Below, one piece after another: positions 4,264 through 44,999 of a stretch of DNA of 64,000 nucleotides. The stretch comes from a virus, in the IMG/VR virus record IMGVR_UViG_3300036770_008700, positions 1 through 64,000 of that record; one strand, given 5' to 3'. The notes under the pieces were generated by a model. It was not told the origin of the DNA. It made no database searches and saw only the letters and a program-made list of their open reading frames with translations. The position numbers and the translations under genes were made by a program. Numbering within the stretch: position 1 is the first letter of the stretch; the number at the start of each line of letters is the position of its first letter.

Positions 4264-5258
4264 AAACTGTGGAAATGAGTTTGAGCTAATAATTCCAGAA
4301 AAAAATGGGAGTGGTAGCTCAAACTCACTTAGACGAGTTTTTTGCAATGACAAATGCAAAAATCAGTTTGGTAGGAATAAAGAAGAAGGAAAAGTAAATC
4401 GTATTTGCAAAATATGTGACAAAACTTTTCTTAGCTATCCTTCACAGAAACGCTCTTACTGTTCTAGAAAATGTCAAAATGAAAGTAAAAAAGTAGCACA
4501 CGTTGAAAGAAAGTGTGAATACTGTAATAGTATTTTTGAAGGCAAGCCAAGTGATTTGAATGTGTATTTCTGCTCTAGAGAATGCTTCCATAAAGCCGGA
4601 AGAGAAGTAAAAACTTGCATTACCTGTAAAAAACAGTTTGAAATAAAAAAATCTGATAATCATATTCAACGATGCAGTCGTCAATGTCAGTTCGTTGATC
4701 AGTCGAACGGTAAAATCAAAATACACCTAAATGGCAGAACAGGTTATCGCATTGATTTAGGAATGAAAGATTATTTCAAAAGTGCTCTAGAGGCAGATTA
4801 TGCAAGGTTCCTTGAATATTTTGGGATTCAATACATTTATGAAGGTAAAACGTTCCTAACAGCTATAGGGGCATATACTCCCGACTTCTTCTTGCCAGAA
4901 CTAAACTTATTTGTTGAACTCAAAGGTGTAGAGGATAATGGAAAACCATTCGAAAAAATGATGACAAAGAATCTTTTAAAGCACCAATCGGTACTAGAAC
5001 AAGCCAGCAAAATAATAACAATAACACAAAAAGAGTTTATAGCTGGAATAAAAGCTGCTAATCTATGGTCAACTATTCCCAACCTAGAACAAAGAAACTA
5101 TAAAAAAACAAAAGGATTGGTTGTCACATATGAAGATCAAACAAATCAACAAAGTAAACCTAGCAACTCCAATCAAGCTGGTTGATATTGGAGTTGAAGG
5201 CGATCACACGTTTTTTGTAAGCGACAAACCAAACGGAAACTTTTTCCTTACACATAAC
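3964..5258 (+). mobile_element. Split intein with nested endonuclease gene, inserted in dnaE
   Basis: The insert runs from intein Cys1 codon (3964) to the Asn codon before the +1 Ser (5259). It consists of IntN (99 residues plus stop), a separate endonuclease gene in another frame overlapping both intein halves, and IntC (about 43 residues ending HN). This is the fractured-gene arrangement known from environmental phage sequences: split inteins around a freestanding homing endonuclease. Lysine codons switch from mostly AAG in the exteins to mostly AAA in the insert. Confidence 0.88.
4223..5185 (+). CDS. Homing endonuclease nested in the split intein (zinc-finger array + PD-(D/E)XK)
   Basis: 320 residues. 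Four or five Cys4-type zinc fingers occupy residues about 12-155 ([32 protein letters not shown], each followed by a CSRxC-type pair). A nuclease domain follows: [15 protein letters not shown], then [18 protein letters not shown], the E...PD...ExK signature of Vsr-like PD-(D/E)XK enzymes such as the I-Bth0305I family. AGAGG lies upstream of the ATG. It overlaps IntN by 41 nt and the IntC gene by 56 nt (from the ATG at 5130). It presumably cleaves intein-free dnaE near the PDIDSDF codons (inference). Confidence 0.85.
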
Positions 5259-31694: not shown

Positions 31695-32015
31695 TTAGAT
31701 TATCCTTTTCCAGTCGCCTGGAAACCAAATTATCCATCCACAGCTACCATCCTCAGTCAACACCTTTATGAAGTTTTGACGAATTACACCGTTTTCCTTC
31801 AAATCAAATTCTAACACAACGTTATTCAAATACACAACGTTTTTGTTTTTTTCTATCAAAGCTATCATTGAGTAACTGCAATGATCTAAATCATAAAAAT
31901 GGATTAAGTGTTCAAAGGTGAGCAGCTCCCGCAACGTCAAGCTTTCATATAGCTTGCCGGGAATCATTGGATTCTTTTGCCATTTAGCTAGCTCTCGTTG
32001 AAACAGATAACTCAT
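31695..32015 (-). CDS. KLY family protein
   Basis: 106 residues: PGKLYESL, NNVVLEFD, IKVLTEDGSCGWI, with an extra N-terminal helix (SYLFQRELAKWQ). It follows the tiny zinc-ribbon gene after about 19 nt. Confidence 0.65.
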   Translation of the reverse strand: MSYLFQRELAKWQKNPMIPGKLYESLTLRELLTFEHLIHFYDLDHCSYSMIALIEKNKNVVYLNNVVLEFDLKENGVIRQNFIKVLTEDGSCGWIIWFPGDWKRII

Positions 32016-32034
32016 TTTATCGTCTATGGCTAAT

Positions 32035-32202
32035 TTACTTCAATGTAGATACTTCAAAACTATAACCACACTTCTCACAAGCTAGCTTTGTTTTAGTTTT
32101 GTCAAGCTTCATCATGTGCTGCAACGCACATTCAGTGTTGTTGCTGTTCATGCGCTTAATTAGGCCAGACGCAGCGTTACTAGCAAATATCGTTGTTTCC
32201 AT
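32035..32202 (-). CDS. Tiny zinc-ribbon-like protein
   Basis: 55 residues with AAAGAG upstream of ATG. A helical N-terminus (SGLIKRMNSNNTECALQHMM) leads to CEKCGYSFEV, half of a zinc ribbon; a distant Cys and His may complete the site. Function unknown. Confidence 0.55.
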   Translation of the reverse strand: METTIFASNAASGLIKRMNSNNTECALQHMMKLDKTKTKLACEKCGYSFEVSTLK

Positions 32203-32218
32203 ACTTTCTCTTTCATAT

Positions 32219-32602
32219 TCAAATTTTCTTGCGTTGGCTTTTAGTAACCTTGCGAATGTTTGCTTCCATCAAAGCTAGCTCACCAACCTCTACATTCTTT
32301 CCAGCTTCCGCATGACGCTTCTTGAGATGATAGCTCTTGTGACAACTAGAATGACACAACACCATCCCAGCCACATATTCAAGATTCTCCCAATCATCAA
32401 CCTCTCGTGAGCCGATCACGTGATGCAATGTAAGACTTTTACCGGGATAACGAGGATTGTAACCTTCTGCCAACGAACCTCCACAAATCGCACAAGGATG
32501 CATTCTAATGACAAACTGCATAATCCAGTCAAGCTGCTTAACCTTGCTCGTCACAGACCCCTTGCGACGTACAACAGCCTTCTTGACAATATCCTTTTTC
32601 AT
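32219..32602 (-). CDS. HNH endonuclease-like protein
   Basis: 127 residues. CAICGGSL and CHSSCHKSYH frame LTLHHVIGSREVDDWENLEY, giving the Cys-supported HNH fold with HH as the first catalytic motif and Asn in WENLEY. Both termini are basic. It has a leaderless-type promoter, so unlike the late-region endonucleases it is probably expressed early. Either a homing enzyme or a DNA-degrading/packaging-type HNH. Confidence 0.8.
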   Translation of the reverse strand: MKKDIVKKAVVRRKGSVTSKVKQLDWIMQFVIRMHPCAICGGSLAEGYNPRYPGKSLTLHHVIGSREVDDWENLEYVAGMVLCHSSCHKSYHLKKRHAEAGKNVEVGELALMEANIRKVTKSQRKKI

Positions 32603-32608
32603 ACCAAA

Positions 32609-32637
32609 AGAATATCACAGTAAATAGATTATCTAAA
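32609..32637 (-). promoter_or_regulatory. Leaderless-type promoter
   Basis: TTTAGA, 17 bp, TATTCT with TGA before it, then TTTGGT and ATG 32602. Confidence 0.7.
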
Positions 32638-32938
32638 GATTTAGGTTGATTTTTTTTGGATTAACTTTTTTCCAGTAACCTAAACCAGCTTCGCTAACTT
32701 GTATCCACACTGGACATGCATCGCCAGTTAATACCTTCATCCAGTAATAGTTTACAGATGATGTTGTATACTCAGATATCGATGGCCATATGTCAGCTTG
32801 ATTTTTAATCTCAAGCAAAACAACATATGAACCATCTTCAATATGAACACGATCAAAGTAGTATGAAACACTGCCTGGATTGCCAACATGACCATGAAAC
32901 TTCCAGGGCGCTTTATACAACTTTCCTATCTCCAACAT
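32633..32938 (-). CDS. KLY family protein
   Basis: 101 residues from ATG 32938 (MLEIGKLYKAP); an in-frame ATG at 32953 would add MKKTK. Motifs: IGKLYKAP, YVVLLEI, MKVLTGDACPVWI. Neither start has a clear ribosome site. It lies just downstream of the amidoligase gene and may be co-transcribed with it. Confidence 0.65.
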   Translation of the reverse strand: MLEIGKLYKAPWKFHGHVGNPGSVSYYFDRVHIEDGSYVVLLEIKNQADIWPSISEYTTSSVNYYWMKVLTGDACPVWIQVSEAGLGYWKKVNPKKINLNL

Positions 32939-32994
32939 CTTGGTTTTCTTCATTTGACTGGTAAAAGTAATCAGTAATGTTAAGTAACTTACCT

Positions 32995-34062
32995 TCACAT
33001 AGAAAGGTTCTGAGCCGTGAATCCAGAAAGCTCTTGAATACGCTCCACGTAATAAGCCTTGAGAGACTTGCTAATACCCCGCCAAACTTCATCGGCAACT
33101 GTGGCAGTTGTACGAAGAGAGGTAGGAGTAGGGTCAACACGAGGCTGTGCATACGGGTTGGTAATAGTATAAGACGGATTAGTGTTACCACGCTGGCCGG
33201 GAAGCTTCTTGATAAGAATTCCATGCATGGTCTTGAGTTGTGAGATAGCAACCTTGATACTGCTAGGAGCAAGACCACTGCGATTAGCAATCGTAGCAAG
33301 AAACAACGTGCCACCACCATTGCGGTGACTTGCCATAAACACATCATAAACCTTCTGGCAACCAGAAGTCATGCCAATCCAAGACGCACGAGGACGACCA
33401 CGGCGAGCAGCAGGTTGAGCAACAGTCGCAGCAGAACCCTTTGAAGCTTTAATAAAGGATGAAAGAAATTCAACCCAATTCAGAATGGTATCACCATTGA
33501 TAGAACCAGAATGCTGGCGAAATTCAATCGTGTTATGCTTGGCAAGCGCATGAAGGTTAACCTTGTAATAACGATCAGGCAAAACACGCTGGAGAGCGTG
33601 CATAGTTTGGCAACTTTCAACCATATTAACTACATTAGAACCGCCCTTTGTGTAATACACATCAGAACCACGACGATTGGTAGGCATCATAAGATCAATG
33701 GTGCTCTCAAATTTAGTGTAACGATGGAAAACAGTCTTAACCTCTTCAACGCTAAGATCGCTTGCGTCAATATGAACATGCAATCCACAACTGCGATTAA
33801 CGAATGCACCCATCGCTTGAAGTGTTGCACATACCTTGCGCACAGTGCGCAAATCAGAAGCCTCTTCGGTGTCAAGAACAGGAGACACAAGCTCCATGCT
33901 GAAAAAACCATCAACATCAGACAATGAACCATCGTGCACAATACGCCATTCCGTACCATACCACTTTTCAATCATCAACCCACGCACATGCTTGCGCAAA
34001 TTCTCCACAGTGTTGAGAACGTTCTTGGGGCTGTAGAACTCGATCTCAATTCCGAACTTCAT
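32995..34062 (-). CDS. Amidoligase with AT-hook and winged-helix-like C-terminus
   Basis: 355 residues. Residues 1-205 match the amidoligase (COOH-NH2 ligase, ATP-dependent) family: FGIEIEFYSP at the start, GLHVHIDASD in the middle, and NTIEFRQHSGSIN near the end. These enzymes are thought to join amino groups to carboxylates of peptides or cell-wall components. Residues 218-225 hold RRGRPR, an AT-hook core. Residues 230-290 resemble a winged helix (TLFLATIANRSGLAPSSIKV). A ligase fused to DNA-binding elements is unusual. GC-richer than the neighbours. Confidence 0.75.
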   Translation of the reverse strand: MKFGIEIEFYSPKNVLNTVENLRKHVRGLMIEKWYGTEWRIVHDGSLSDVDGFFSMELVSPVLDTEEASDLRTVRKVCATLQAMGAFVNRSCGLHVHIDASDLSVEEVKTVFHRYTKFESTIDLMMPTNRRGSDVYYTKGGSNVVNMVESCQTMHALQRVLPDRYYKVNLHALAKHNTIEFRQHSGSINGDTILNWVEFLSSFIKASKGSAATVAQPAARRGRPRASWIGMTSGCQKVYDVFMASHRNGGGTLFLATIANRSGLAPSSIKVAISQLKTMHGILIKKLPGQRGNTNPSYTITNPYAQPRVDPTPTSLRTTATVADEVWRGISKSLKAYYVERIQELSGFTAQNLSM

Positions 34063-34068
34063 ACAACT

Positions 34069-34097
34069 AGAATACCAAACGTTAAGAAATTTCTAAA
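34069..34097 (-). promoter_or_regulatory. Leaderless-type promoter of amidoligase gene
   Basis: TTTAGA, 17 bp, TATTCT with TGG before it, then AGTTGT and ATG 34062. It overlaps the inverted repeat AACGTTAAGA (34078-34087) / TCTTAACGTT (34116-34125), whose left arm lies in the spacer and right arm upstream of -35, an operator-like layout. Confidence 0.7.
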
Positions 34098-34125
34098 GGA
34101 ATTCTTTCTTTTTTATCTTAACGTT

Positions 34126-34225
34126 TTTTTAGCTGCTTTACAGGCAAAAATTTAGTAAACAAACTGAACCATTGAATGATAGCAAACAAAAAAACAAGCA
34201 AGTGAATTATTTGTGGATGTTTATC
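34126..34225. other. AT-rich divergent intergenic region
   Basis: No gene is supported. It separates the leftward amidoligase promoter from the rightward promoter at 34226. T-rich and A-rich blocks only. Confidence 0.3.
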
Positions 34226-34254
34226 TTTAAAGTTTAGGTGTGACTTGTTATGAT
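34226..34254 (+). promoter_or_regulatory. Plus-strand promoter
   Basis: TTTAAA, 17 bp, TATGAT with TGT before it. The predicted start is about 34261, three bases before an ATG at 34264. Confidence 0.6.
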
Positions 34255-34263
34255 AGAGTTTAT

Positions 34264-34359
34264 ATGGGCGACAACGTTTTGGAAGATACGATTGCAGGAG
34301 TGTATTTTTGCATGGTGATTCCATTTGTTATTGTTTTGGCATACAACGTTTTCAACTGA
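34264..34359 (+). CDS. Possible tiny membrane protein
   Basis: 31 residues; GVYFCMVIPFVIVLAYNVF is a plausible transmembrane helix. The ATG lies about 3 nt after the predicted transcript start, which fits the near-leaderless habit of this genome but leaves no room for a ribosome site. It could equally be non-coding leader. Confidence 0.35.
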   Translation: MGDNVLEDTIAGVYFCMVIPFVIVLAYNVFN

Positions 34360-34375
34360 TTGAAAGGTGAAATAC

Positions 34376-34582
34376 ATGAGTAACGATGTTTTTGTTGTAA
34401 TGGAAGGTGCAAAGATTGCTGGCGTTTATCGTTATAGAGAGGATGCTGTTAGTCATGCACAAGCCTGTGGAGGAAATTTTATCGTGCAACCTATTCGTAA
34501 CGAGATTCCTGGTTGGGTTCAAGTTATGGTAGATTCAGCAAAGAAAAAGGCTCAAATGCAAAGCTCGGGAGTAATAAGATGA
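34376..34582 (+). CDS. Small hypothetical protein
   Basis: 68 residues from ATG 34376 with AAAGG upstream. DVFVVMEGAKIAGVYRYRED reads as a strand-turn-strand followed by helix AVSHAQACGG; this resembles small phage proteins but no family is named. It overlaps the next gene by 4 nt (ATGA). Confidence 0.65.
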   Translation: MSNDVFVVMEGAKIAGVYRYREDAVSHAQACGGNFIVQPIRNEIPGWVQVMVDSAKKKAQMQSSGVIR

Positions 34583-35025
34583 GTAAAGAAACATTTAAAC
34601 CATCAAAGAATGCTGCCGAAATGTTAGCAGAAATGCATGACATGAGTGATGAAGAACTTGAATGGTTTAGTGATATGGGAATGGGTATTGCTGCCACAAT
34701 GGAAGACTTAACCGCTCAAATTGAGAATCCACCAAAAAAGCGTGTTAAAGGCTGCGAAGTGATTCACTTGGGAGCAGAGTTGTTTTTACCAATGCGTGCC
34801 TTAAAACAAAGGCTAGAAGCCGGTGGTTTAGAACTAGAAGATTATGTCCGAGAACTTGACCAAATTGTTGATAGGTTGAGTTTTGTTGTAACAGAAAATC
34901 AAAAAGTACTAAGCAACCCCAAGGTTCGTAACCATATGAAACAATTAGCAAACGCTGTTGTGCTTCACCTGGAAGCTGGTCCAGTGCTCAATAATATGTT
35001 TGGTATTCTTAGTCAAGAACAGTGA
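34579..35025 (+). CDS. Helical hypothetical protein
   Basis: 148 residues from ATG 34579, coupled to the previous gene. Strongly acidic helical N-terminus (AEMLAEMHDMSDEELEWFSD) and long C-terminal helices (LKQRLEAGGLELEDYVREL). No catalytic motif is visible. It converges on the minus-strand structural-like pair. Confidence 0.65.
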   Translation: MSKETFKPSKNAAEMLAEMHDMSDEELEWFSDMGMGIAATMEDLTAQIENPPKKRVKGCEVIHLGAELFLPMRALKQRLEAGGLELEDYVRELDQIVDRLSFVVTENQKVLSNPKVRNHMKQLANAVVLHLEAGPVLNNMFGILSQEQ

Positions 35026-35044
35026 CAGGTCATGTTTTGTTCAA

Positions 35045-35479
35045 CTACCCCAATCCTGGCGAATAAACGATAAAGTTTTCAAAACTAGCTGAACCTGTGT
35101 GATAAGGGTCACTTGCATTAAATGTGAATGACCCCGTAAGCGTTGGTATGCTTGCTGTTGGAATGCCTGTTAATCCAGCTAAAATCTGAAAATTAACTGA
35201 TCCGCTGCCACTTGGTTTCTTAAGATATATTTCTTTTACACGAACTTCAAATGTAGCATATCCATTGCTACCGATTGTAAAATGATTGGAATTACTGACT
35301 CCGAACGCTGTAAATCCAACATCTAAAGAACTAGTATTGGAATGAATCGTTATAAACTTGGTAACGTAGGGAAAGCTTATTTTAACTGGCGTTGTTGAAG
35401 CAGATGATGCTGTAACATATGGCAAACCAGATGCTAGGTAAGCTGGAACATCATTATAGCCGGGAGAGGGATATTGCAT
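35045..35479 (-). CDS. Beta-sandwich virion-type protein, copy A
   Basis: 144 residues, Ser/Thr/Gly-rich, all beta. SFPYVTKFITIHSN, VGFTAFGVSNSNHF and FEVRVKEIYLKK align with the downstream-strand neighbour. The ending ILAGLTGIPTASIPTLTGSF is nearly identical in both. These features suggest a capsid decoration, fibre or neck protein. Confidence 0.7.
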   Translation of the reverse strand: MQYPSPGYNDVPAYLASGLPYVTASSASTTPVKISFPYVTKFITIHSNTSSLDVGFTAFGVSNSNHFTIGSNGYATFEVRVKEIYLKKPSGSGSVNFQILAGLTGIPTASIPTLTGSFTFNASDPYHTGSASFENFIVYSPGLG

Positions 35480-35482
35480 AAA

Positions 35483-35902
35483 TCAACCGATACCTTCATA
35501 AGTTAAAACATTAGTGAATGAATTGCTGCCAGTAAAATAAGGATCAGACGAGCTAAATGGATATGAGCCTGTGAGTGTTGGAATGCTTGCTGTTGGAATA
35601 CCTGTTAATCCAGCAATGATATGAAAAGTATGAGCACCATCAATATACATTTCTTTTACTCGAACTTCAAATGTAACGGTATCATTGTTGGAAATACTGA
35701 AATAGTTTGTCCCTGCAACACCGTTTGCTGTGAATCCAATCTTTAAAGATCCACCGTCAGCTTTCACTGTAATAAACTTGGTCACGTAAGGAAACTGCAC
35801 ATGATATGCAGGTGCTGATGTTGCGGTGCCTGTGAGAGCATATGGTAGTCCAGAAATTTGATAAGCTGGAGTAAAGTTAAAGCCGGGCTGTGGCCATTGC
35901 AT
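35483..35902 (-). CDS. Beta-sandwich virion-type protein, copy B
   Basis: 139 residues, paralogous to copy A: QFPYVTKFITVKADGGSLKI, GFTANGVAGTNYFSI, FEVRVKEMYIDG, and the shared GLTGIPTASIPTLTGS. The gap between the two genes is 3 nt. Same likely role: a surface-exposed structural protein. No clear promoter is seen. Confidence 0.7.
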   Translation of the reverse strand: MQWPQPGFNFTPAYQISGLPYALTGTATSAPAYHVQFPYVTKFITVKADGGSLKIGFTANGVAGTNYFSISNNDTVTFEVRVKEMYIDGAHTFHIIAGLTGIPTASIPTLTGSYPFSSSDPYFTGSNSFTNVLTYEGIG

Positions 35903-35969
35903 GTTGCTTATACCTTTTTTGTTGGTTGAACATAACTATTCAATAAACCAGAAAAGGATTTACAATCTC

Positions 35970-36092
35970 ATGCATGACAAACTTACTCTAGAAAAATGTT
36001 GCTCTGTGTTCGGTGACTCAAAATGGGCACCCCTCGCTGGCTTCCTAGCGGTTACAGAAGGTCTGCAAACCCTACACCACAGTCATCACTAA
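35970..36092 (+). pseudogene. N-terminal fragment of a Dps-like gene
   Basis: 40 residues: FGDSKWAPLAGFLAVTEGLQ and TLHHSHH match FGPNEYAPLAAFLAATEALQ and MIAHSHH of the intact protein at 36736. The frame stops right after HSHH, at the site where the minus-strand HNH gene ends. The codons have diverged considerably, so it is not a recent copy. It keeps an AAAAGGA site and ATG, so a short peptide could still be made. Confidence 0.65.
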
Positions 36093-36691
36093 CCTTCCCA
36101 TCTATTGTTCTTTTTCAAGTTATCAAACGCTGGAAGAGGTTGTAAATTTTCAAGAGCCCAGCACGCTTTAAACTCTGATGAATCTGTCGAATCGTAATTA
36201 AACCAAGAATCTGGTCTTATGTGGTCGATATGCCAATAAGTTCCATGATTTTCCCACGACATTTCTGGCGTAAATTGTTTTTCTAAATGTTCTTTTAACT
36301 GCTCTAAAGTGTAACCTACAAGATCAATCCAGCTTGTCCTATTTTTCGTTAAAAATCTAGTTTTAAGAGCATGGTTCATTCGTCTGCTCATGTTTTCTCT
36401 TAAACGAAACTGTGGATCAGTTGCTCTTCTTATTCTATTTTGTTCGTTCAGTTGTTCTTTTAATCTTTCACGACGTTCACGTTGCTTTTGAACGTAATGA
36501 TCTCTTCGTTTATGTCTGATTTCTTTCTTTTTCTCACGCAGTTTAACTTTGTTTTTTTGACAATATTCACGGCATGGCTCTTTTCTGCAAATTTTGCATA
36601 TGCTAAGATGGCCATCTTTTGATTTTTTATTTTTGTGATAATCAGTTAATGGTTTTTCAATCGAACACGAACTGCACTTTTTCAACGTCAT
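36089..36691 (-). CDS. HNH homing endonuclease
   Basis: 200 residues. An N-terminal zinc ribbon (CSSCSIEKPLTDYHKN, CKICRKEPC) and a very basic linker (KLREKKKEIRHKRRDHYVQK) lead to the HNH core: YWHIDHIRPDSWF, then WALENLQPLPAFDNLKKNN. It sits between a Dps-like gene fragment and the intact Dps-like gene, so that gene is its probable target. TATAGATAGG upstream of ATG may be a late-type promoter. Confidence 0.88.
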   Translation of the reverse strand: MTLKKCSSCSIEKPLTDYHKNKKSKDGHLSICKICRKEPCREYCQKNKVKLREKKKEIRHKRRDHYVQKQRERRERLKEQLNEQNRIRRATDPQFRLRENMSRRMNHALKTRFLTKNRTSWIDLVGYTLEQLKEHLEKQFTPEMSWENHGTYWHIDHIRPDSWFNYDSTDSSEFKACWALENLQPLPAFDNLKKNNRWEG

Positions 36692-36735
36692 ATACCTATC
36701 TATAAGTATTCTAAAAATAACTTAAAGGGATTTAT

Positions 36736-37233
36736 ATGGACAGTATTGATAATGTTTGGGAATCTATGGTTGAGATCTTTGGTCCAAATGAATATGCACC
36801 ATTAGCTGCATTTTTAGCTGCTACAGAAGCTCTTCAAATGATAGCGCACAGTCACCATTGGCAAACCAAAGGTGAAAACTTCTATGGCGATCACCTTCTT
36901 TATCAACGTCTGTATGAAGCTATCCTGCCTGAGATAGATTTGATTGGTGAAAAACTGATTGGTGTCAGCCAAGATGTTTCTCTTACCAACTACTTCAAAC
37001 GTGTTAAAGCAATGGAAATGTTTCTTAAAGCTGTAACACACAGCGATCAACCATATATTGTTGTAAGCCATGATGCAGAACTAACATACGTTCGTATGGG
37101 TGGCGAACTAATGGACCAACTAGAACAAGCTGGTTTGCTCACAAGAGGCTTGGAACAAATGCTAGGCAACGTTCTTGACAAACATGAAGAACATATCTAC
37201 TTGCTTGACCAAAGAGTTAAAAGCAACAAATGA
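36736..37233 (+). CDS. Dps/ferritin-like protein
   Basis: 165 residues with AAAGGGA upstream of ATG. HSHHWQTKGENFYGDHLLYQ followed by RLYEAILPEIDLIGEKLI is the Dps-type ferroxidase region (H...D...E on two helices). A four-helix bundle is likely. Dps proteins store iron and protect DNA from oxidants; in a phage it might be a virion-associated or host-protective factor. It overlaps the next gene by 4 nt. Confidence 0.7.
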   Translation: MDSIDNVWESMVEIFGPNEYAPLAAFLAATEALQMIAHSHHWQTKGENFYGDHLLYQRLYEAILPEIDLIGEKLIGVSQDVSLTNYFKRVKAMEMFLKAVTHSDQPYIVVSHDAELTYVRMGGELMDQLEQAGLLTRGLEQMLGNVLDKHEEHIYLLDQRVKSNK

Positions 37234-37856
37234 AACTATATCCAATATTATTTGAGCAACAAGAAACAGAGCATCCTTTCTCTCCAGAGTTGTTTGATGC
37301 TTTAAAAGAGTTTGTTGACAAAAACAATATTGAAAAGCTTGAAGCATTGATGCCAGAAATTAAAGAGTTGGTTTCATCAAACAAGTATCCAAATATAACA
37401 GATCCAAGTGATGTTAAAGTATATCGTGGAATGAAAATCAGCTTTAAACGAGCAGAAGAGCTATGCAAAACTTATCAATGCATAGAAGAAGAAACAAGTA
37501 AAAACAACGTTGTTTATAAGACGTTTAAAGGTTCTGTTGTTGTTCCTACTAAACGTAACGTACAAAGTTGGTCTGGAAATGTTAACGTTGGCATTCAATT
37601 TGCTATGGACCCAGAAATTGGTGGTGAAGTTCCAATCGTGTTCTCGGCAATAGCTTCAAAAGACAAGTTTTTCGGTAAGCCGGGAGAAATTGCAAGAATT
37701 GTTTTGCCAAGACGAGCGAGTGAAATGGAAACAATATCTATTTCTCCAGTAGAATCAGATGGTTTTGTTTTGGCAATTCCACCAGATGATTTCTTTGGAA
37801 GGAATCCAAGTTTAACCGATCCATATACCCTCAAGAAATTGACTTTAAAGCTCTGA
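37230..37856 (+). CDS. Tagged ADP-ribosyltransferase-like protein
   Basis: 208 residues, beginning MKLYPILFEQQETE, the consensus tag. VKVYRGMKISFKRAEEL supplies the Arg of an R-S-E ART, NVQSWSGNVNVGIQFAMD the SxS strand and following helix, and EMETISISPVESDGFVLAIP the late acidic strand. This is the clearest ART in the window. With the tag, an injected host-modifying enzyme is an attractive guess. Translation is coupled to the Dps-like gene (ATGA). Confidence 0.72.
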   Translation: MKLYPILFEQQETEHPFSPELFDALKEFVDKNNIEKLEALMPEIKELVSSNKYPNITDPSDVKVYRGMKISFKRAEELCKTYQCIEEETSKNNVVYKTFKGSVVVPTKRNVQSWSGNVNVGIQFAMDPEIGGEVPIVFSAIASKDKFFGKPGEIARIVLPRRASEMETISISPVESDGFVLAIPPDDFFGRNPSLTDPYTLKKLTLKL

Positions 37857-37888
37857 AATTATTTTGACACAAAAGGAGTATAAAACCC

Positions 37889-38542
37889 ATGCTTTTGTCT
37901 GATATATGGAAACTTCAAGGTTCGGCAAAACAAGAACAAGCATTGTTAGAAGAGCTAACTAAAGCTCCACTGGTGTTTAAAGAAGTAACGTTGCAAGACG
38001 CAACCAACGTTTTAGTTCTTCAAGTTACAAATGATTACTTGTGCTTGGAAACCATAAGAGTTTCCTTGTTGCCAGCAACAGCTCAAAAAGTTGCCAACCA
38101 TTTCAATTGTATACTTCCAACCAAAAACCTTGTTGATAAGATTTGGAAAGCTTGTGACTTAAAGTTAAACCCAAAGTCTATGTCAACCAATCGTGGTTCT
38201 TATGACACACTCAAAGCACACAATGACTCAATAAATACTCAAGTAAACAACCGAGAGTTTGTTTTGATTGGTGGTCATAAGAAAGACATTGTAATCAATA
38301 GCAAAATGCCAAAAGGCAAAGTAATCATATATGGCTGGCATTACCCTAATGGTAAACCTATTCAACCAGAAACAACTGTTCATGGTGATTTCTACAAAGA
38401 CTATTCACATGGAACAAGACTTGTAAGTAAAACTGTAATGTTGAATGGTGAAGTTAAAAATATCTGGGATGTGATTAACAGTGCTGTTTGGGAAAAACTG
38501 GTTGGAGATAAACCCTTTTTAGAAACTGGATATAGAGTTTAA
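37889..38542 (+). CDS. Conserved protein of unknown function
   Basis: 217 residues with AAAGGAG about 10 nt upstream of ATG. The C-terminal half has a recognisable conserved block: LIGGHKKDIVINSKM, VIIYGWHYPNGKPIQP, VHGDFYKDYSHGTRLVSKT. The His/Asp residues (GHKKD, VHGD, DYSHG) could form an active site. I have a sense of this block in phage and bacterial hypothetical proteins, but know no function. Confidence 0.7.
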   Translation: MLLSDIWKLQGSAKQEQALLEELTKAPLVFKEVTLQDATNVLVLQVTNDYLCLETIRVSLLPATAQKVANHFNCILPTKNLVDKIWKACDLKLNPKSMSTNRGSYDTLKAHNDSINTQVNNREFVLIGGHKKDIVINSKMPKGKVIIYGWHYPNGKPIQPETTVHGDFYKDYSHGTRLVSKTVMLNGEVKNIWDVINSAVWEKLVGDKPFLETGYRV

Positions 38543-38575
38543 ACTTTATCCTTTTGTTTTAAGAACAAATTTAGG

Positions 38576-38677
38576 TTATTTGGTGGTTCGCAATCCACCA
38601 ACACAAATGACCCACGAATCTGTGGCGTCTTTCATTTCTGTGTTGTGGATTTTAGTTGTGTTTGGTTTTCCAATTTT
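38576..38677 (-). pseudogene. C-terminal fragment of a RuvC-like gene
   Basis: The minus strand reads KIGKPNTTKIHNTEMKDATD and SWVICVGGLRTTK, then stop. This aligns without gaps to KTGKSANQEVFNSEMKDACD and AWVVVVGGKRL, the C-terminus of the intact RuvC-like protein at 39739-40299. There is no start codon. It lies directly downstream of the GIY-YIG gene, and includes the 7 bp hairpin TTGGTGG/CCACCAA (38580-38601), which may also serve as a terminator. Confidence 0.75.
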
Positions 38678-38690
38678 CAGTATATTGTTT

Positions 38691-39716
38691 TTACTCAATA
38701 CTGTTTGTGGGCAAAGTTGTAGAAACATTTTCTTTCTCTTCCTGATCTAATAAAATCCAACCCTTATAAGCCTTTCTTTTACCTTTAATCAAATCATGCA
38801 TTGATGATTGAGACAAACCATGTTCTTTGCAGAATTGGTTTAGGTTTGAAATAGGTCCAAAAACTTTATTTGTTGGGGATTGAATTCTCACATCATATGT
38901 ATTGCTTATTTTTGAGATTCTGTCAGTTTTTATTGAATCTTTTGTGATATGCTTATTTTCCAAAAGTCTCCAACCTTGGCAAATTTTAGCATAGCCATTA
39001 ATCATTGATCTAAAGTTTTTATCATTGATTCCATGCTCTCTGCAAAATGCTCTAAGATTAGTGATAGGACCATACTCTTTATTATTCGGGCACACAACCC
39101 GCACATCGTATACTTTTTGTAATTTTTGAGCTAGTAAATCTTTTGCTGGAATGTATGGAATGTCTTTATTTATTGCTAATCTCCAACCTTTACAAGTTTT
39201 TACTTTACCCTTTCTTAACTGCAAAAGATGCGAATAAAATATGTTGTTTTCTATGCAAAATTTACGTAAGTTAACCACCGACACAAATTTACCATTTGGA
39301 TCAATCAAATCTACTGATAGTTTTTTCTTGGAATTCGACAACTTTTGTTTAGTTTGCTCTGAGAGTTTTAAACCCAAATTAGAATAAGCAGTTGGATTAA
39401 TATTGTAACATTCATTTTGATTGTCATAATATTGATCAAGCCAATATTGCTCTCTCTGAACGATGTTGTCAACAGTGCAATGTTCTAAAACACGCATCTC
39501 AAAACTATCAAAATACTTCAAGTATTCTTTTTGCAGGTAAGGGCTTGCTCGTCCTTTTCTTAAATTTGTATTATGCACCCCAAGTCTTTTGGTAATCGAC
39601 AAACAACTTCCTATGTAAATTTTATTGTTTCTGACATTGCGTATTTGGTATATGGCTGGTGTTTTTGGAGTGTATTCACCATTCAATATAATTGGCCCTA
39701 GTAATCTTCTTGTCAT
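38691..39716 (-). CDS. GIY-YIG homing endonuclease with three DNA-binding repeats
   Basis: 341 residues. The catalytic domain (about 18-110) has AIYQIRNVRNNKIYIGSC (GIY-YIG motifs), KRLGVHNTNLRKG with catalytic Arg region, and EQYWLDQY with the metal-binding Glu. Then come three homologous repeats of about 60 residues, each with an N-terminal strand, a helix-turn-helix-like NLRxFCxEHG segment and a xGWRLL ending (about 135-180, 205-255, 275-325). A promoter-like TATAAC lies 12 nt before ATG. Confidence 0.9.
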   Translation of the reverse strand: MTRRLLGPIILNGEYTPKTPAIYQIRNVRNNKIYIGSCLSITKRLGVHNTNLRKGRASPYLQKEYLKYFDSFEMRVLEHCTVDNIVQREQYWLDQYYDNQNECYNINPTAYSNLGLKLSEQTKQKLSNSKKKLSVDLIDPNGKFVSVVNLRKFCIENNIFYSHLLQLRKGKVKTCKGWRLAINKDIPYIPAKDLLAQKLQKVYDVRVVCPNNKEYGPITNLRAFCREHGINDKNFRSMINGYAKICQGWRLLENKHITKDSIKTDRISKISNTYDVRIQSPTNKVFGPISNLNQFCKEHGLSQSSMHDLIKGKRKAYKGWILLDQEEKENVSTTLPTNSIE

Positions 39717-39738
39717 GCGAGATAAGTAGTTATACCAT

Positions 39739-40299
39739 TTATTTTATCCCGTCAAGTCTCTTTCCTCCAACGACAACCACCCATGCATCACAAGCATCTT
39801 TCATTTCCGAGTTAAAAACTTCTTGATTGGCACTTTTACCTGTTTTTGCCACATGTTTTTTCCAAGGAAATTCTGGATGTAGTGCTGTGATAAAATCAAA
39901 CACTTTCTCTTTAACGGGACGTTTATCGGCTTTGTTATTCTTAAACCCTACAGCTTTTCTAGCAGAAGTTACGTTAACATCAACAACTTCTGCATTAAAA
40001 GCTTTATGGGAAAGATAGGAAATGATTCCATTAAATTTTGATAAGACTGCAAGTGTATCTGCGCTGCTAAAACCCTTACTAAACATCTTAGCATTAGCTT
40101 CAACATAGATACGTTCTACTTTTTTATCACCAACTAGTTTCTTTATCTCTTCAATACCTCTATCTGCTTTGTCCCACATAGTATGTAGTGTGCTGGAAGT
40201 CAATTTTACAGCATCAAATACAACAACTTGTTCATTTTCATCAACCAAACAAACTCCAGTGCAACTCGTGCTGATATCAAGTCCTAAGAAATATTTCAT
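39739..40299 (-). CDS. RuvC-like Holliday junction resolvase
   Basis: 186 residues from ATG 40299, supported by AAAGGA upstream. An RNase H-like fold is seen: YFLGLDISTSCTGVCLVD (first Asp), RIYVEANAKMFSKGF (Glu), and SEMKDACDAWVVVVGG (last two acidic residues). This is the poxvirus/phage RuvC layout. It would resolve branched DNA before packaging and may act with the RadA-like ATPase. Confidence 0.78.
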   Translation of the reverse strand: MKYFLGLDISTSCTGVCLVDENEQVVVFDAVKLTSSTLHTMWDKADRGIEEIKKLVGDKKVERIYVEANAKMFSKGFSSADTLAVLSKFNGIISYLSHKAFNAEVVDVNVTSARKAVGFKNNKADKRPVKEKVFDFITALHPEFPWKKHVAKTGKSANQEVFNSEMKDACDAWVVVVGGKRLDGIK

Positions 40300-40325
40300 A
40301 TTGATTCCTTTAACATCCCAAACAA

Positions 40326-40841
40326 TCATTCGTCATAAACCTCGCAACCATAAAGACGCCTAATCTTGTCAACTGATTGCTTTGGAATCTTGCACGTATA
40401 ACTTACTTGATAGCAATCTTTGTTTGAAGCAGCTAAAACTACATGGTCTTTCCATGTTGGCTTCATGTTAAGAAACTCAACACCTAGTTGCTGTTGAAAC
40501 AACTCAACAACAGCATTTACCCAGCCCCAGCCGGTTTTAAATGCCATTTGCTTGCCTCGTGGAATATTAATGTTTAGTCGTTGTGTTTTGTAACCAGCAA
40601 TGGTTTCATTCGACCATACAGCTTCATTCAAAGCAATCCAATCATTATTCGAGGTACGTGAGTATGCAGCCGCAAAATCCTTGAGACGACGACCTACTTG
40701 AACATAACATTGTTCTGGCAAAGCATCTACTAATGCTTTTCTTTGCTCGGTCATTGCTTGCTCAAGTGTTGAGTAAAAGTTAACTGTAGTGATTGCTTTG
40801 TCTTTATTGCCAACAAGCATGTAATACGATTTTTGAATCAT
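40326..40841 (-). CDS. Hypothetical protein
   Basis: 171 residues with TAAGGAG upstream of ATG. Starts with a strand-rich section (YYMLVGNKDKAITTVNFYS) and continues with a helix, then GKQMAFKTGWGWVNAVVELF. No catalytic motif is visible. The 26 nt gap to the RuvC-like gene suggests co-transcription. Family not recognised. Confidence 0.65.
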   Translation of the reverse strand: MIQKSYYMLVGNKDKAITTVNFYSTLEQAMTEQRKALVDALPEQCYVQVGRRLKDFAAAYSRTSNNDWIALNEAVWSNETIAGYKTQRLNINIPRGKQMAFKTGWGWVNAVVELFQQQLGVEFLNMKPTWKDHVVLAASNKDCYQVSYTCKIPKQSVDKIRRLYGCEVYDE

Positions 40842-40882
40842 AATGGTGACTCCTTACGCTAAGTTATCACACACGTTTTTCT

Positions 40883-41185
40883 TTATAAACCAATATCAAA
40901 ACATTCATTATCACACCAATCATCAGGAACAAAAATCCATCCAAGCTGTCCATTGTTTGAAAGAACTTTTAAACAATTTCTATCTCGCTCAATCAAACAG
41001 AATATACTCTTTGGTTCAAGATAAGAAACGTTGCAGTTTAAATGAAATGAATAATATTTGGCTGCATCGCTGGTGTCTCGAAGACTACATCGTCGAATAG
41101 CAATGCTGCTGTGTAGGATACTATCTTTTGAAGGATACAACAACCAAAAGTATTCCTTGATTTGATAAAGCTTTCCAACATTCAT
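40883..41185 (-). CDS. KLY family protein
   Basis: 100 residues: VGKLYQIKEYFWLLYPSKDS, NCNVSYLEPKSIFCLIER, LKVLSNNGQLGWI. Last of four tandem, closely related members. Its linker is not especially GC-rich. It overlaps the upstream member by 4 nt. Confidence 0.75.
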   Translation of the reverse strand: MNVGKLYQIKEYFWLLYPSKDSILHSSIAIRRCSLRDTSDAAKYYSFHLNCNVSYLEPKSIFCLIERDRNCLKVLSNNGQLGWIFVPDDWCDNECFDIGL

Positions 41186-41475
41186 TGGTTTACTTCCTCA
41201 ATATAGTTCTTGTCCTTGTAAAAATCAGAAAGATAAATCCAACCAAGCTCACCATTAGTTGAAAGGATTTTACAGAACTTACCATCTTGCTCCAAAAAAC
41301 AGAAAATGCTTTTTGGAGAAATATATGAAACGTTGCAGTTATATTCCTTGCTATAATAAGCGGCGGCGGAGGCGGTGGTGTCGAGGGAGGCGAAGAGGAA
41401 GGCGTCAGCAATATCCTTTGAAGGATAAAGTAACCAAAAATACTTCTTGACTTGATAAAGCTTTCCGATGTTCAT
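41182..41475 (-). CDS. KLY family protein with GC-rich linker
   Basis: 97 residues: IGKLYQVKKYFWLLYPSKDI, an Ala/Thr linker (ADAFLFASLDTTASAAAYY) encoded by GC-rich DNA at 41360-41411, NCNVSYISPKSIFCFLEQ, CKILSTNGELGWI. Four-base overlaps on both sides. Confidence 0.78.
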   Translation of the reverse strand: MNIGKLYQVKKYFWLLYPSKDIADAFLFASLDTTASAAAYYSKEYNCNVSYISPKSIFCFLEQDGKFCKILSTNGELGWIYLSDFYKDKNYIEEVNQ

Positions 41476-41768
41476 TGATTTACTTCCTCAATATCGGCTT
41501 TGCACCAATCAGCAAGATTAATCCAACCAAGTTCTCCATTAGTTGAAAGAATCTTGCAACAATACCCATCTTGTTCCAAGAGCATAAAAATGCTGTTTGG
41601 AAAAATATATGAAACGTTGCAGTTGAAACGCTTGCTATAATAATCAGCGCCCTCTACGGCTTCGGTGAAGGAGGCTCCAGCAACAGCGGGGTAGGTGGCG
41701 ACTTCATCCTTTGAAGGAAAAAGAAACCAAAAGTATTTCTTGGCTTGATAAAGCTTTCCAACATTCAT
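41472..41768 (-). CDS. KLY family protein with GC-rich linker
   Basis: 98 residues: VGKLYQAKKYFWFLFPSKDE, a linker TYPAVAGASFTEAVEGADYY (GC-rich DNA at 41646-41702), NCNVSYIFPNSIFMLLEQ, CKILSTNGELGWI. Outside the linker it is nearly identical to its neighbours. Confidence 0.78.
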   Translation of the reverse strand: MNVGKLYQAKKYFWFLFPSKDEVATYPAVAGASFTEAVEGADYYSKRFNCNVSYIFPNSIFMLLEQDGYCCKILSTNGELGWINLADWCKADIEEVNQ

Positions 41769-42061
41769 TGATTTACTTCCTCAATGCAACCCTTTGCCCA
41801 ATCTTTATTTTTTGGATAAATGATCCAACCAAGTTCTCCGTTGGTTGAAAGAATCTTGCAAAATCGTCCATCTTGTTCCAAAAAACAGAAAATGCTTTTT
41901 GGAGAAATGTATGAAATATTGCATTTGAAATACGTGCTCCAATAATCAGCAACAGCGGCGGTGGCGGCGGCGGCCAGATCGTCTTCGGCGGCAGCAATCT
42001 CCTTTGAAGGAAAAAGGAGCCAAAAATACTCCTTGACTTGATAAAGCTTTCCAACATTCAT
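41765..42061 (-). CDS. KLY family protein with GC-rich linker
   Basis: 98 residues from ATG 42061, fixed by a leaderless-type promoter. VGKLYQVKEYFWLLFPSKEI, an Ala-rich linker (AAAEDDLAAAATAAVADYW; GC-rich DNA at 41950-41997), CNISYISPKSIFCFLEQ, CKILSTNGELGWI. First gene of the four-member cluster. Confidence 0.78.
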   Translation of the reverse strand: MNVGKLYQVKEYFWLLFPSKEIAAAEDDLAAAATAAVADYWSTYFKCNISYISPKSIFCFLEQDGRFCKILSTNGELGWIIYPKNKDWAKGCIEEVNQ

Positions 42062-42067
42062 GAATCC

Positions 42068-42096
42068 AGTATACCACATGGAAAAATGAATATAAC
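42068..42096 (-). promoter_or_regulatory. Leaderless-type promoter of KLY cluster
   Basis: GTTATA, 17 bp, TATACT with TGG before it, then GGATTC and ATG 42061. The -10 and spacer end resemble those of the 24517 promoter, whose gene is the closest relative outside the cluster. Confidence 0.65.
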
Positions 42097-42098
42097 GG

Positions 42099-42530
42099 TT
42101 ATTTTTTCGCTTCTAAAAGCTTTGTAAATCCTTCAATAACAGCGTCACTCCAAAATTGATACTCATAATCCTCTAACTTATTCTCTTTTAACCACTTCCT
42201 CGTTGCCGTAGCCTTGGCAATAACTTTTCTGTCAGTCAACTTGTCGGCACGCTTGACTTCCACAATAACCTTTTTACCGGTTTTATACAGAACCAAGAAG
42301 TCAGGAGTATAGTTTCTATACCTGCCAGCTATTGCATACCGGATAATAATGCTCTCATATTCGTAAGAAAGCACATCTGGATTCTGATCTAGATAGAGTG
42401 CAACCGTGTATTCCCAACCTGATCTATATTTTATTGGTGTTGGACATTTAGGAGAATAATGTGTCCCAGTTATGTAATGCTTTTTACGCTTGCGTCGCTT
42501 TTTTACAGTTTTCTTTTTATCAGTTTCCAC
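42099..42530 (-). CDS. TnsA-like PD-(D/E)XK nuclease, possibly head-completion type
   Basis: 143 residues from GTG 42530 with AAAAGG upstream, overlapping the previous gene by 28 nt. A basic tail (KKRRKRKKHY) precedes the nuclease: YRSGWEYTVALYLDQNPDVL (Glu), YTPDFLVLYKTGKKVIVEVK (PD...ExK). This RSxWE...PDF...EVK pattern resembles T4 gp4-like head-completion nucleases and TnsA. Given the virion genes to the right, a head/neck role is more likely than restriction (inference). Confidence 0.68.
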   Translation of the reverse strand: METDKKKTVKKRRKRKKHYITGTHYSPKCPTPIKYRSGWEYTVALYLDQNPDVLSYEYESIIIRYAIAGRYRNYTPDFLVLYKTGKKVIVEVKRADKLTDRKVIAKATATRKWLKENKLEDYEYQFWSDAVIEGFTKLLEAKK

Positions 42531-44015: not shown

Positions 44016-44999
44016 TTACAGTATATTCATCTCTTCTAACGTTTGTTTTGTTAGCAGTTTATAAGCATCGATCCCATTTGCTCGACAATACTCTTCGGCT
44101 GCTAACTGCTTTTGCTTAACTTTTTCAGATTCTGAATAAGCTGCTGGCTTGATTTCCCAAAGTTCTTTCCGTCCATCGGTATATTCAATCAGAAAATCTG
44201 GAATATATCGTCGAGCATGTTCTCTGTTTCCTTCGTTTAGTTTGTAGCAGATCACGAACGGTTCATATGTAAACGTTCTAACTGTCAGTTCTTTATCCAA
44301 CCATTCAACTACTGCTTTTTCCCAAGATGACCGATAAAAGACTTCGTTGCCCAATTTTTCAGAAAAAACGTGTCCATTTTTGTGGAAGTTTTTCCCATAG
44401 GCTTGACGCTTTCCTGCAACCATTTCTGAAGAAACAATCTCTGACATTTTTTGTCTAGTCTCTAGTGAATGGTTTTTGCCGTACATCGGATTTCTCTCTC
44501 CACTGAAACAAGCTGTATCTTTATGATGTTTTGAGATTTTTTCTTTTGCTTCCTTTGTATGATGTTTACCAAACATAGGATGTTTCGTTTTGTCTTTCAG
44601 TCTCTCAGTCATAGAAGCACTAAGTTTTCCTTTTACTTCATCGTCCATTCGTGCATTATTAGGAATCAAACCTTCTCTAATCGCCGCACCACGACAAGGT
44701 TTGCTACAAAAATGATGTACGAACTTAGCGATCTGATTTTTCCATTGCAAAACCAACTTTTTGCAATAAAAACATTCAATTTCTGCTTTTCTGGGAGAGG
44801 GCTTATAACTTTTTTCCATAACTCTTCGATGTGCATATGCACATTCAAGTTTACAATAATGATTTTTGTTCTTTAGTTGCTTGTATTCCAGCTTTTTTGG
44901 AGTAAAAACAGTGTGGCAAAAATCACACTCGAAAACAACAATTCGTCGCTTTTGTTTTGGTTTACCAACAACGGCTTCCATCTTGTCTTCTATTATCAT
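44016..44999 (-). CDS. Homing endonuclease: zinc ribbons, NUMOD3 repeats and TnsA-like nuclease
   Basis: 327 residues with AGAGGTGAG upstream. Two zinc-ribbon modules (CDFCHTVFTPKK, CFYCKKLV, with CKLEC and CSKPC partners), two NUMOD3-like motifs (HPMFGKHHTKEAKEKIS, NPMYGKNHSLETRQKMS), then a PD-(D/E)XK domain: FYRSSWEKAVVEWLDKEL, RRYIPDFLIEYTDGRKELWE. The nuclease resembles the phage protein at 42099. Probably a free-standing late-region homing enzyme. Confidence 0.85.
   Translation of the reverse strand: MIIEDKMEAVVGKPKQKRRIVVFECDFCHTVFTPKKLEYKQLKNKNHYCKLECAYAHRRVMEKSYKPSPRKAEIECFYCKKLVLQWKNQIAKFVHHFCSKPCRGAAIREGLIPNNARMDDEVKGKLSASMTERLKDKTKHPMFGKHHTKEAKEKISKHHKDTACFSGERNPMYGKNHSLETRQKMSEIVSSEMVAGKRQAYGKNFHKNGHVFSEKLGNEVFYRSSWEKAVVEWLDKELTVRTFTYEPFVICYKLNEGNREHARRYIPDFLIEYTDGRKELWEIKPAAYSESEKVKQKQLAAEEYCRANGIDAYKLLTKQTLEEMNIL

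Follow-up and report, generated by a model that had tools for sequence, protein, structure and literature searches.

An HNH endonuclease gene in a virus genome is flanked on one side by a short open reading frame resembling the beginning of a dps-like gene, and on the other side by a full-length dps-like gene. This arrangement raises the question of which of the two gene starts is native to the genome, and how the other one came to lie beside a nuclease gene. The locus is part of a stretch of 64,000 nt (the window) belonging to an IMG/VR virus record of 122,895 bases, in which the HNH protein has one match (E ≤ 0.01).

The dps locus and its uninterrupted relatives

The short open reading frame (35970..36092, plus strand) consists of 40 codons with a TAA at the junction to the HNH gene, has its own ATG with AGGA upstream, and encodes MHDKLTLEKCCSVFGDSKWAPLAGFLAVTEGLQTLHHSHH. 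The HNH gene (36089..36691, minus strand, 200 aa) has its stop codon at the complement of positions 36089-36091, overlapping the last base of the final sense codon of the fragment. A short intergenic stretch (36692..36735) separates it from the divergent, complete dps-like gene (36736..37233, plus strand, 165 aa). The Dps-like protein matches PHROG 3636 (E 3.9e-11), with the Pfam families DUF5856 and Ferritin scoring under their cut-offs, and PADLOC gave no match for either HNH or Dps. The original prediction, made from the letters of the sequence, was that the fragment matches the start of the Dps-like protein, that it stops where the opposite-strand HNH gene ends, and that its codons have diverged strongly from the full copy. 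The overlap of the two gene ends and the homology are as predicted: the fragment and the full gene match beyond chance (33 aa, 54.5%, E 3e-10 in the flank test; E 3e-7 by tblastn inside the 122,895-base record). The divergence is strong as well, with DNA identities of 0.23, 0.40, 0.70, and 0.67 in successive 30-nt windows.

It had also been proposed to compare the locus with relatives lacking the HNH gene. In two viral contigs, L003 and L004, a single dps gene (88–90% protein identity over residues 9–163) is uninterrupted, the HNH gene is absent at dps, and the surrounding genes are syntenic with the window on both sides. The HNH protein had no match (E ≤ 0.01) in the 260-kb record of L004, which may itself be a fragment. 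In both contigs dps starts with MHDKLSLEQCCSVFGDSEWAPLAAFLAVTEGLQ, and the window fragment begins nearly alike: 33 of its 40 amino acids are identical to the dps start of L003 and 34 of 40 to that of L004, and the distance to the divergent upstream gene is 67 nt for the fragment and 64 nt in both contigs. DNA identity to the two contigs is 0.80–0.83 over the first 90 nt of the fragment and only 0.60–0.63 over the last 30 nt. What is a separate reading frame in the window is the 5′ end of dps in these relatives, and not the conserved gene of its own that would have spoken against the prediction. Because dps of the HNH-less relatives begins like the fragment, we regard the fragment as native and the start of the seemingly intact gene as foreign.

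The full-length gene was compared with the same two contigs. Its identity in codon-aligned 30-nt windows was 0.20–0.70 through codon 41 and 0.87 from codon 42. For codons 9–41, 59 of 99 nt (L003) and 58 of 99 nt (L004) were identical, versus 303 of 363 nt for codons 42–162 in both cases (Fisher p 1.6e-6 for L003 and 4.8e-7 for L004), and at the protein level codons 42–162 had 118/121 and 117/121 identities to L003 and L004, respectively. The maximum-likelihood breakpoint lies at codon 40 (2ΔlnL 27.9 with L003, 27.2 with L004; support range codons 38–41.7 with L003, and a wide 18.7–43 with L004), and this is where the displaced fragment ends. The best changepoints in six other shared control genes reached 2ΔlnL 4.2–11.7; dps was tested over codons 9–162 with an edge of 9 nt, and the controls over their full length after gap stripping, with the edge set at 30 nt. 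Judged from these comparisons the full-length gene is a hybrid, with a foreign first part of 41 codons and a native remainder. Thus, the originally predicted position of a Dps-like gene across the HNH gene stands, but the gene is not intact. The suggestion that an intact copy was placed beside a split allele is not supported, since only the hybrid with its native body from codon 42 is present. The alternative offered with it, in which the endonuclease brought in the flank of a foreign allele, gains support from the uninterrupted dps genes that begin like the fragment.

When positions 36090-36858 are left out, 35970-36089 joined to 36859-37233 yields a single open dps frame, which is identical to L004 at 152 of 165 positions and to L003 at 153 of 165 (stop counted). 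The insert is therefore delimited as a unit of 769 nt (36090..36858) that comprises the HNH gene, the intergenic spacer, and a foreign dps 5′ end (codons 1–41; 36736..36858, plus strand). The native dps body (36859..37233, plus strand) starts at the Trp codon of an HSHHW motif, so that the junction falls at HSHH|W, and H41 and W42 are invariant in a five-row alignment. We take this position to be the ferroxidase region of Dps. Homing endonucleases choose conserved sites, and a ferroxidase-type region is such a site. Beyond the endonuclease gene, the displaced native end matches the element-free relatives.

Nine of the 14 dps differences between L003 and L004 fall in codons 32–40. Such clustering at the putative target might reflect recoding of a cut site, but we consider this suggestive only, because about 2.7 kb of the L003/L004 alignment contain five hypervariable patches of this kind, two of them in ruvC and one of these over codons 155–161. 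The two contigs are 93–98% identical in three aligned blocks; short patches were seen at L003 positions 396-454, 883-1003, 2204-2277, and 2601-2732, and the patches include dps codons 32–40 and ruvC codons 155–161.

Among 53 dps loci, an alignment scan revealed by score no clear source for the foreign 5′ end, and no second carrier of the dps unit was found. A search of the same 53 loci, L003 and L004 included, with flanks of up to 4 kb revealed no separate same-strand partial copy of dps; the opposite strand gave two 12-residue matches, in L136 and L137.

Other features were noted in the surroundings. Two neighbouring paralogous genes (35045-35902, minus strand) are 55% identical and had no convincing family match in Pfam or PHROG. 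An Amidoligase_2 family gene (32995-34062, minus strand; E 1.1e-31) is 68% identical in L004, and the single window gene at 37230-37856 has a tandem pair of homologues in L004 (6455-7798, plus strand). Farther away, the DNA polymerase III alpha gene (2389-7370, plus strand) appears to be in pieces. Its N-part (2389-4263) closes with an intein-like N half, and its C-part (5121-7370) opens with an apparent intein C half, ...FLTHN|SFPDID; between them lies an ORF of 320 aa (4223-5185) that has CxxC pairs and matched nothing in Pfam. The arrangement resembles the 'fractured gene' layout of split inteins.

Similar layouts at other phage genes

A second locus of the same layout, with an unrelated enzyme, lies 2 kb from dps. 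Here, a GIY-YIG homing endonuclease gene (38691..39716, minus strand; PF01541, E 6.4e-10) is located between an orphan ruvC 3′ fragment (38576..38692, minus strand) and a full RuvC-like resolvase gene (39739..40329, minus strand). The orphan matches the adjacent ruvC C-terminus (35 aa, 48.6%, E 7.6e-8), and its similarity starts at codons 147–154, close to a changepoint in ruvC at about codon 155 (2ΔlnL 24.5 with L003, 16.9 with L004, versus 4.2–11.7 in the six control genes), which indicates that the final ~30 codons of the full gene may be foreign. Nucleotide identities of 0.54–0.61 were obtained among the two window tails and those of L003, L004, and L021, so neither window tail is clearly native. 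This locus appears, less firmly, to be a parallel to the dps cassette. Nearby on the minus strand, we observed a tandem family of paralogues of about 100 aa each (40886-42112; mutual identity 48–66%), and two TnsA-like endonuclease-domain genes (42099-42530 and 44016-44999), one with NUMOD3 motifs and both conserved in L003.

Among the best 80 of 255 loci related to a denV-like gene, nine (L225-L231, L233, L234) have the order gene, HNH gene, 3′ fragment. Some are near-copies (L227 and L228 are 99.9% identical), so we count them as about three groups, represented by L225, L226, and L227. Between L225 and L227 identity was 72.3% in the gene core (nt 1–220), 97.9% in the remainder of the gene (nt 221–546), 96.3% in the HNH gene, and 76.2% in the displaced fragment, with outer flanks of 1 kb at 48.5% and 44.3%, i.e., not alignable. 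The tail was nearly identical at synonymous positions, too (dS 0.016). L225 and L226 were similar throughout (core 98.6%, tail 99.1%, HNH gene 97.1%), with 84.9% in the fragment (dN 0.059, dS 1.5 over 25 codons). The fragments begin at one common place and bound the transferred block. The comparison shows that the end of the denV-like gene and the HNH gene moved between lineages as a block. The simplest reading would be that one unit entered recipients with differing native 3′ ends at the same position; a single old insertion with later gene conversion of the unit may also account for the data, and in both cases the unit moves. Evidence on which end is native comes from the nearest HNH-less row, L232 (core 72% identical to L225), whose tail is 49% identical to the HNH-linked tail and 60% to the displaced fragment. 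The nativeness of the fragment depends on this row, since among the distant HNH-less rows L236-L244 (cores 41–46%) seven of nine tails are nearer to the HNH-linked tail of L225 and two of nine to its fragment. Apart from these loci, L248 contains an N-terminal partial copy of the denV-like gene, which is of a different kind and has no HNH gene.

For DNA ligase, 48 of 57 loci were usable (L198, L220, L223, and six rows under 425 aa were dropped), and in six of these an HNH gene abuts the ligase 3′ end (HNH+). The tails of L169 and L170 resemble that of L168 by 94% and 90%, with cores at 83% and 81%. Among the HNH− rows listed, eleven have cores at 82–84%, and their tails are 64–74% like the L168 tail and 68–80% like the displaced L168 fragment. 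L173 and L174, which are HNH+ with a different-looking HNH gene, have tails 76% like that of L168. Stretches of 98–100% DNA identity extend between L168 and L169 through the 3′ part of the ligase gene and most of the HNH gene, and past the HNH gene identity drops to about 50%. When a tree was built from the final 84 codons, four HNH+ rows (by path L168, L169, L170, and L191) formed the smallest starred set (99) that includes L168; the HNH+ label needs 2 changes on this tree (0/500 shuffles as low) versus 5 changes on the tree of the first 900 nt (156/500 shuffles as low). The core data reject a clade of these four rows (p-AU 2.5e-5, lnL difference 128.6); the clade was named from the tail tree, and the two sets of columns are separate. 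The conflict between the trees depends on L191, since L168, L169, and L170 as a clade are compatible with the core data (p-AU 0.28). In the tail tree, none of the five closest neighbours of the L168 fragment has an HNH gene abutting ligase; in four of them (L182, L183, L196, L224), HNH-like pieces lie about 0.7 kb downstream of the gene. These data support, less firmly than for the denV-like gene, co-transfer of ligase tail and HNH gene. The displaced ligase fragment is kept in one of the 57 loci, L168, which is the same contig as L080. In L080 (1603-2115, minus strand) this displaced 3′ end is joined with about 87 codons of a different sequence, perhaps the remnant of a further insertion.

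How common is the layout? From an HNH alignment scan, in which the best 80 of 446 relatives were kept, we surveyed 102 HNH-family genes in 90 loci including the window, and 96 of the genes were tested loosely. Besides the window, this loose flank test, whose output also includes chance and paralogue matches, yielded candidates at the 5′ end of nrdB (L024), the 3′ end of ligase (L080), the 3′ end of the denV-like Pyr_excise gene (L086, the same contig as L225), the 5′ end of an intein-bearing gene (L094), and a 62-aa gene (L028); L094 and L080 appear only in this test and are absent from the strict lists. As candidate hybrids we consider nrdB of L024 and the genes at L028, L094, L045, and L087. 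Both copies were present within 300 nt in 4 of 91 cases for HNH genes and 10 of 732 for other genes. Stricter settings, picked after this count was known, gave 3/91 versus 5/732 (Fisher 0.049), 3 versus 6 (0.067), and, at the strictest (both copies at most 60 nt from the gene, unequal ORFs), 3/91 versus 2/732 (0.011). The GIY-YIG/ruvC case sits among the controls at every setting and is one of the 2/732 at the strictest. Too near to a locus end for the survey were 9 of 100 HNH genes and 105 of 837 control genes. An abutting fragment pair was found in none of the 11 annotated-phage HNH loci (L157-L167) among the 60 matches listed, and four of the 11 showed weak, distant flank matches. All contigs in the comparisons are metagenomic. 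The layout is uncommon, and the survey by itself is weak, so the general claim is borne by the denV-like and ligase families. As a separate observation, the HNH ORF in L088 (3200-4252) ends in a fused, nearly identical DNA repeat of the final 15 codons of the adjacent upstream gene, which is SbcC-like (named by eye).

The HNH protein and the origin of the hybrid gene

The HNH protein has an N-terminal CxxC...CxxC motif and a C-terminal WENHGTYWHIDHI...N motif, and D156, H157, and N182 are invariant across 14 aligned HNH sequences. It matches PHROG 1035, 'endonuclease VII' (E 1.4e-24), a name that is an annotation and does not imply recombination endonuclease VII activity for this enzyme. There was no Pfam match at E ≤ 0.1, and therefore no intein domain is assigned to the protein. 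A structure model (pLDDT 89.7) had Cas9 HNH domains and Hpy99I as its best PDB matches, which were weak (E 0.6 or more), and Foldseek returned 44 matches at E ≤ 10 and none at E ≤ 0.001. A PDB sequence search with the HNH profile found only ribosomal protein L6 chains (E 0.06–0.14), which we take as chance. Other types of mobile element were rejected: there was no Rfam match at E ≤ 0.1 within 32000-42000, the insert carries its own start codon and gene end, which disagrees with a self-splicing intron, and the HNH gene lies on the strand opposite to dps and hence not in frame within a host protein, as an intein would.

We consider it highly probable that the HNH gene encodes a free-standing homing endonuclease and that its mobile unit also brings along a substitute end for the target gene. 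The enzyme would cut at the conserved HSHH|W codons of a dps gene that is still uninterrupted, and the break would be repaired from a phage bearing the HNH gene together with its own dps 5′ end. The recipient would gain the HNH gene and the foreign 5′ end, the latter continuing in frame into the recipient's dps body; the imported end is presumably uncuttable, and the hybrid should be resistant. The recipient's own 5′ end would be displaced and remain as a 40-codon orphan, which could provide the second arm of homology when the unit is transferred again. When the unit first integrated at dps, the event may have been one-sided, with end joining on the fragment side, or the donor may already have contained a fragment that served as an arm; one-sided illegitimate repair would be a natural route for this step. 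Later transfers between fragment-bearing alleles could be two-sided, as the block boundaries in L225 and L227 suggest. At the level of sequence, the comparisons show that a nuclease gene with a foreign gene end took the place of the native dps end and pushed it aside, and that such a unit moved as a block in the denV-like gene; a break at or near the junction made by the HNH enzyme, resistance of the imported end, and an arm role of the displaced end are inferred.

Classical intronless homing with co-conversion, in which the fragment would be a one-off by-product of illegitimate repair and no recurrent mobile unit would exist, has the hybrid and the displaced end in common with this explanation. 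It agrees with the finding of the dps fragment only in the window and in none of the 53 scanned loci, and passages of a T4 review (PMC2988022) describe one-sided microhomology repair and co-conversion near free-standing endonucleases. Nevertheless, we regard it as unlikely, because about three denV-like groups keep a same-start fragment that bounds the transferred block.

Instead of debris or a homology arm, the orphan might be a small functional gene in its own right. Its own ATG and the upstream AGGA would fit, as would its dN/dS of 0.06–0.07 relative to L004 and the protein conservation between the denV-like fragments of L225 and L226. However, a sequence that diverged mostly while it still belonged to dps would show a low dN/dS in any case, and in L003 and L004 the orphan is no separate gene, which makes this reading very improbable.

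Hardly credible is a tandem duplication of dps, with decay of one copy and a chance landing of the endonuclease gene in between. It would explain the homologous stretches on both sides of the HNH gene, but it predicts that start and body are equally related to the relatives, whereas a step from 59% to 83.5% identity is seen at codon 41/42. This step sits at the end of the fragment, the fragment is the part that resembles the relatives, L003 and L004 have a single uninterrupted dps, and a similar layout recurs at ruvC, the denV-like gene, ligase, and nrdB. An assembly artefact that fused two strains, conceivable for one metagenomic contig, is very improbable given the in-frame downstream junction, the synteny on both sides, and the recurrence of the layout in other contigs.

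Comparison with known mobile elements

Free-standing homing endonucleases usually spare their target by residing between genes, or within introns or inteins. The dps locus would indicate another phage solution, in which a spare gene end is carried along. We give even chances to the view that phages hold a general class of homing cassettes that arose independently around unrelated nucleases, HNH and GIY-YIG, each enzyme being accompanied by a resistant 5′ or 3′ end of its target gene, with displaced ends as homology arms. If true, repeated rounds would let core genes of DNA metabolism (dps, ruvC, nrdB, ligase, and denV) evolve as mosaics. This would account for orphan gene fragments beside phage nucleases, would make recombination breakpoints within conserved genes predictable, and would supply naturally paired alleles, one sensitive and one predicted to be resistant, by which cut sites could be located using only sequence data.

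In phages, T4-type enzymes such as SegF, MobA, and MobE are encoded by free-standing genes near the gene they cut and are of the HNH or GIY-YIG type (PMC2988022, in part). The phage cassette has these features in common with them, as well as co-conversion of flanks, and one-sided illegitimate repair is known from T4 intron homing (same passages). Unlike the cassette, the T4-type genes are described there as intergenic or as dividing a gene into halves that both stay in use (mobE/nrdA, mobA/60), and the terms duplicat-, truncated, chimer-, pseudogene, and 'gene fragment' do not occur in the main text of this review. Our literature searches found no phage description of a cassette that replaces a gene end, which is not proof of novelty; such a cassette was also missing from the relevant passages of the T4 review, of PMC10448857 on phage nuclease genes, and of PMC12724721 on Skunavirus HNH genes.

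Fungal mitochondrial mobile ORFs (mORFs) that generate gene hybrids are described in sections of PMC3630166 for atp6, atp9, cox2, and nad3 of Glomus, and, as cited there, for atp6 of Allomyces; Paquin et al. 1994 is cited by the same paper. According to these sections they differ from the dps cassette in having LAGLIDADG or GIY-YIG enzymes, C-terminal replacements, and organelle genomes as hosts.

The closest parallel is provided by the WHO elements of Torulaspora and Lachancea yeasts. As far as the pertinent parts of PMC7282813 describe them, an endonuclease and a replacement end of FBA1 travel together, the target gene is hybrid, former ends persist beside it as displaced fragments, and the trees of the two gene parts conflict. 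Endonuclease with replacement gene end, hybrid target, and displaced old end are all found at dps, where a full-length target gene also lies directly beside the endonuclease gene, as in WHO-like and mORF-like elements. Differences concern the enzyme and the replaced end: WHO proteins are intein-zinc finger fusions and their elements replace the 3′ end (PMC7282813, same parts), while the phage enzyme is HNH, perhaps also GIY-YIG, and the phage cases include a 5′ end (dps, and nrdB as a candidate) as well as 3′ ends (denV-like gene, ligase). Membership in the WHO protein family by descent was rejected, given the endonuclease VII/HNH-type PHROG matches and the lack of an intein-zinc finger fusion. 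Cleavage by WHO enzymes was demonstrated experimentally (PMC7282813, same parts), and the phage cassette is known here from sequence comparison. By its layout, the phage cassette appears to work like the WHO and mORF elements while standing outside the WHO protein family, which would suggest that this strategy arose repeatedly with unrelated enzymes.
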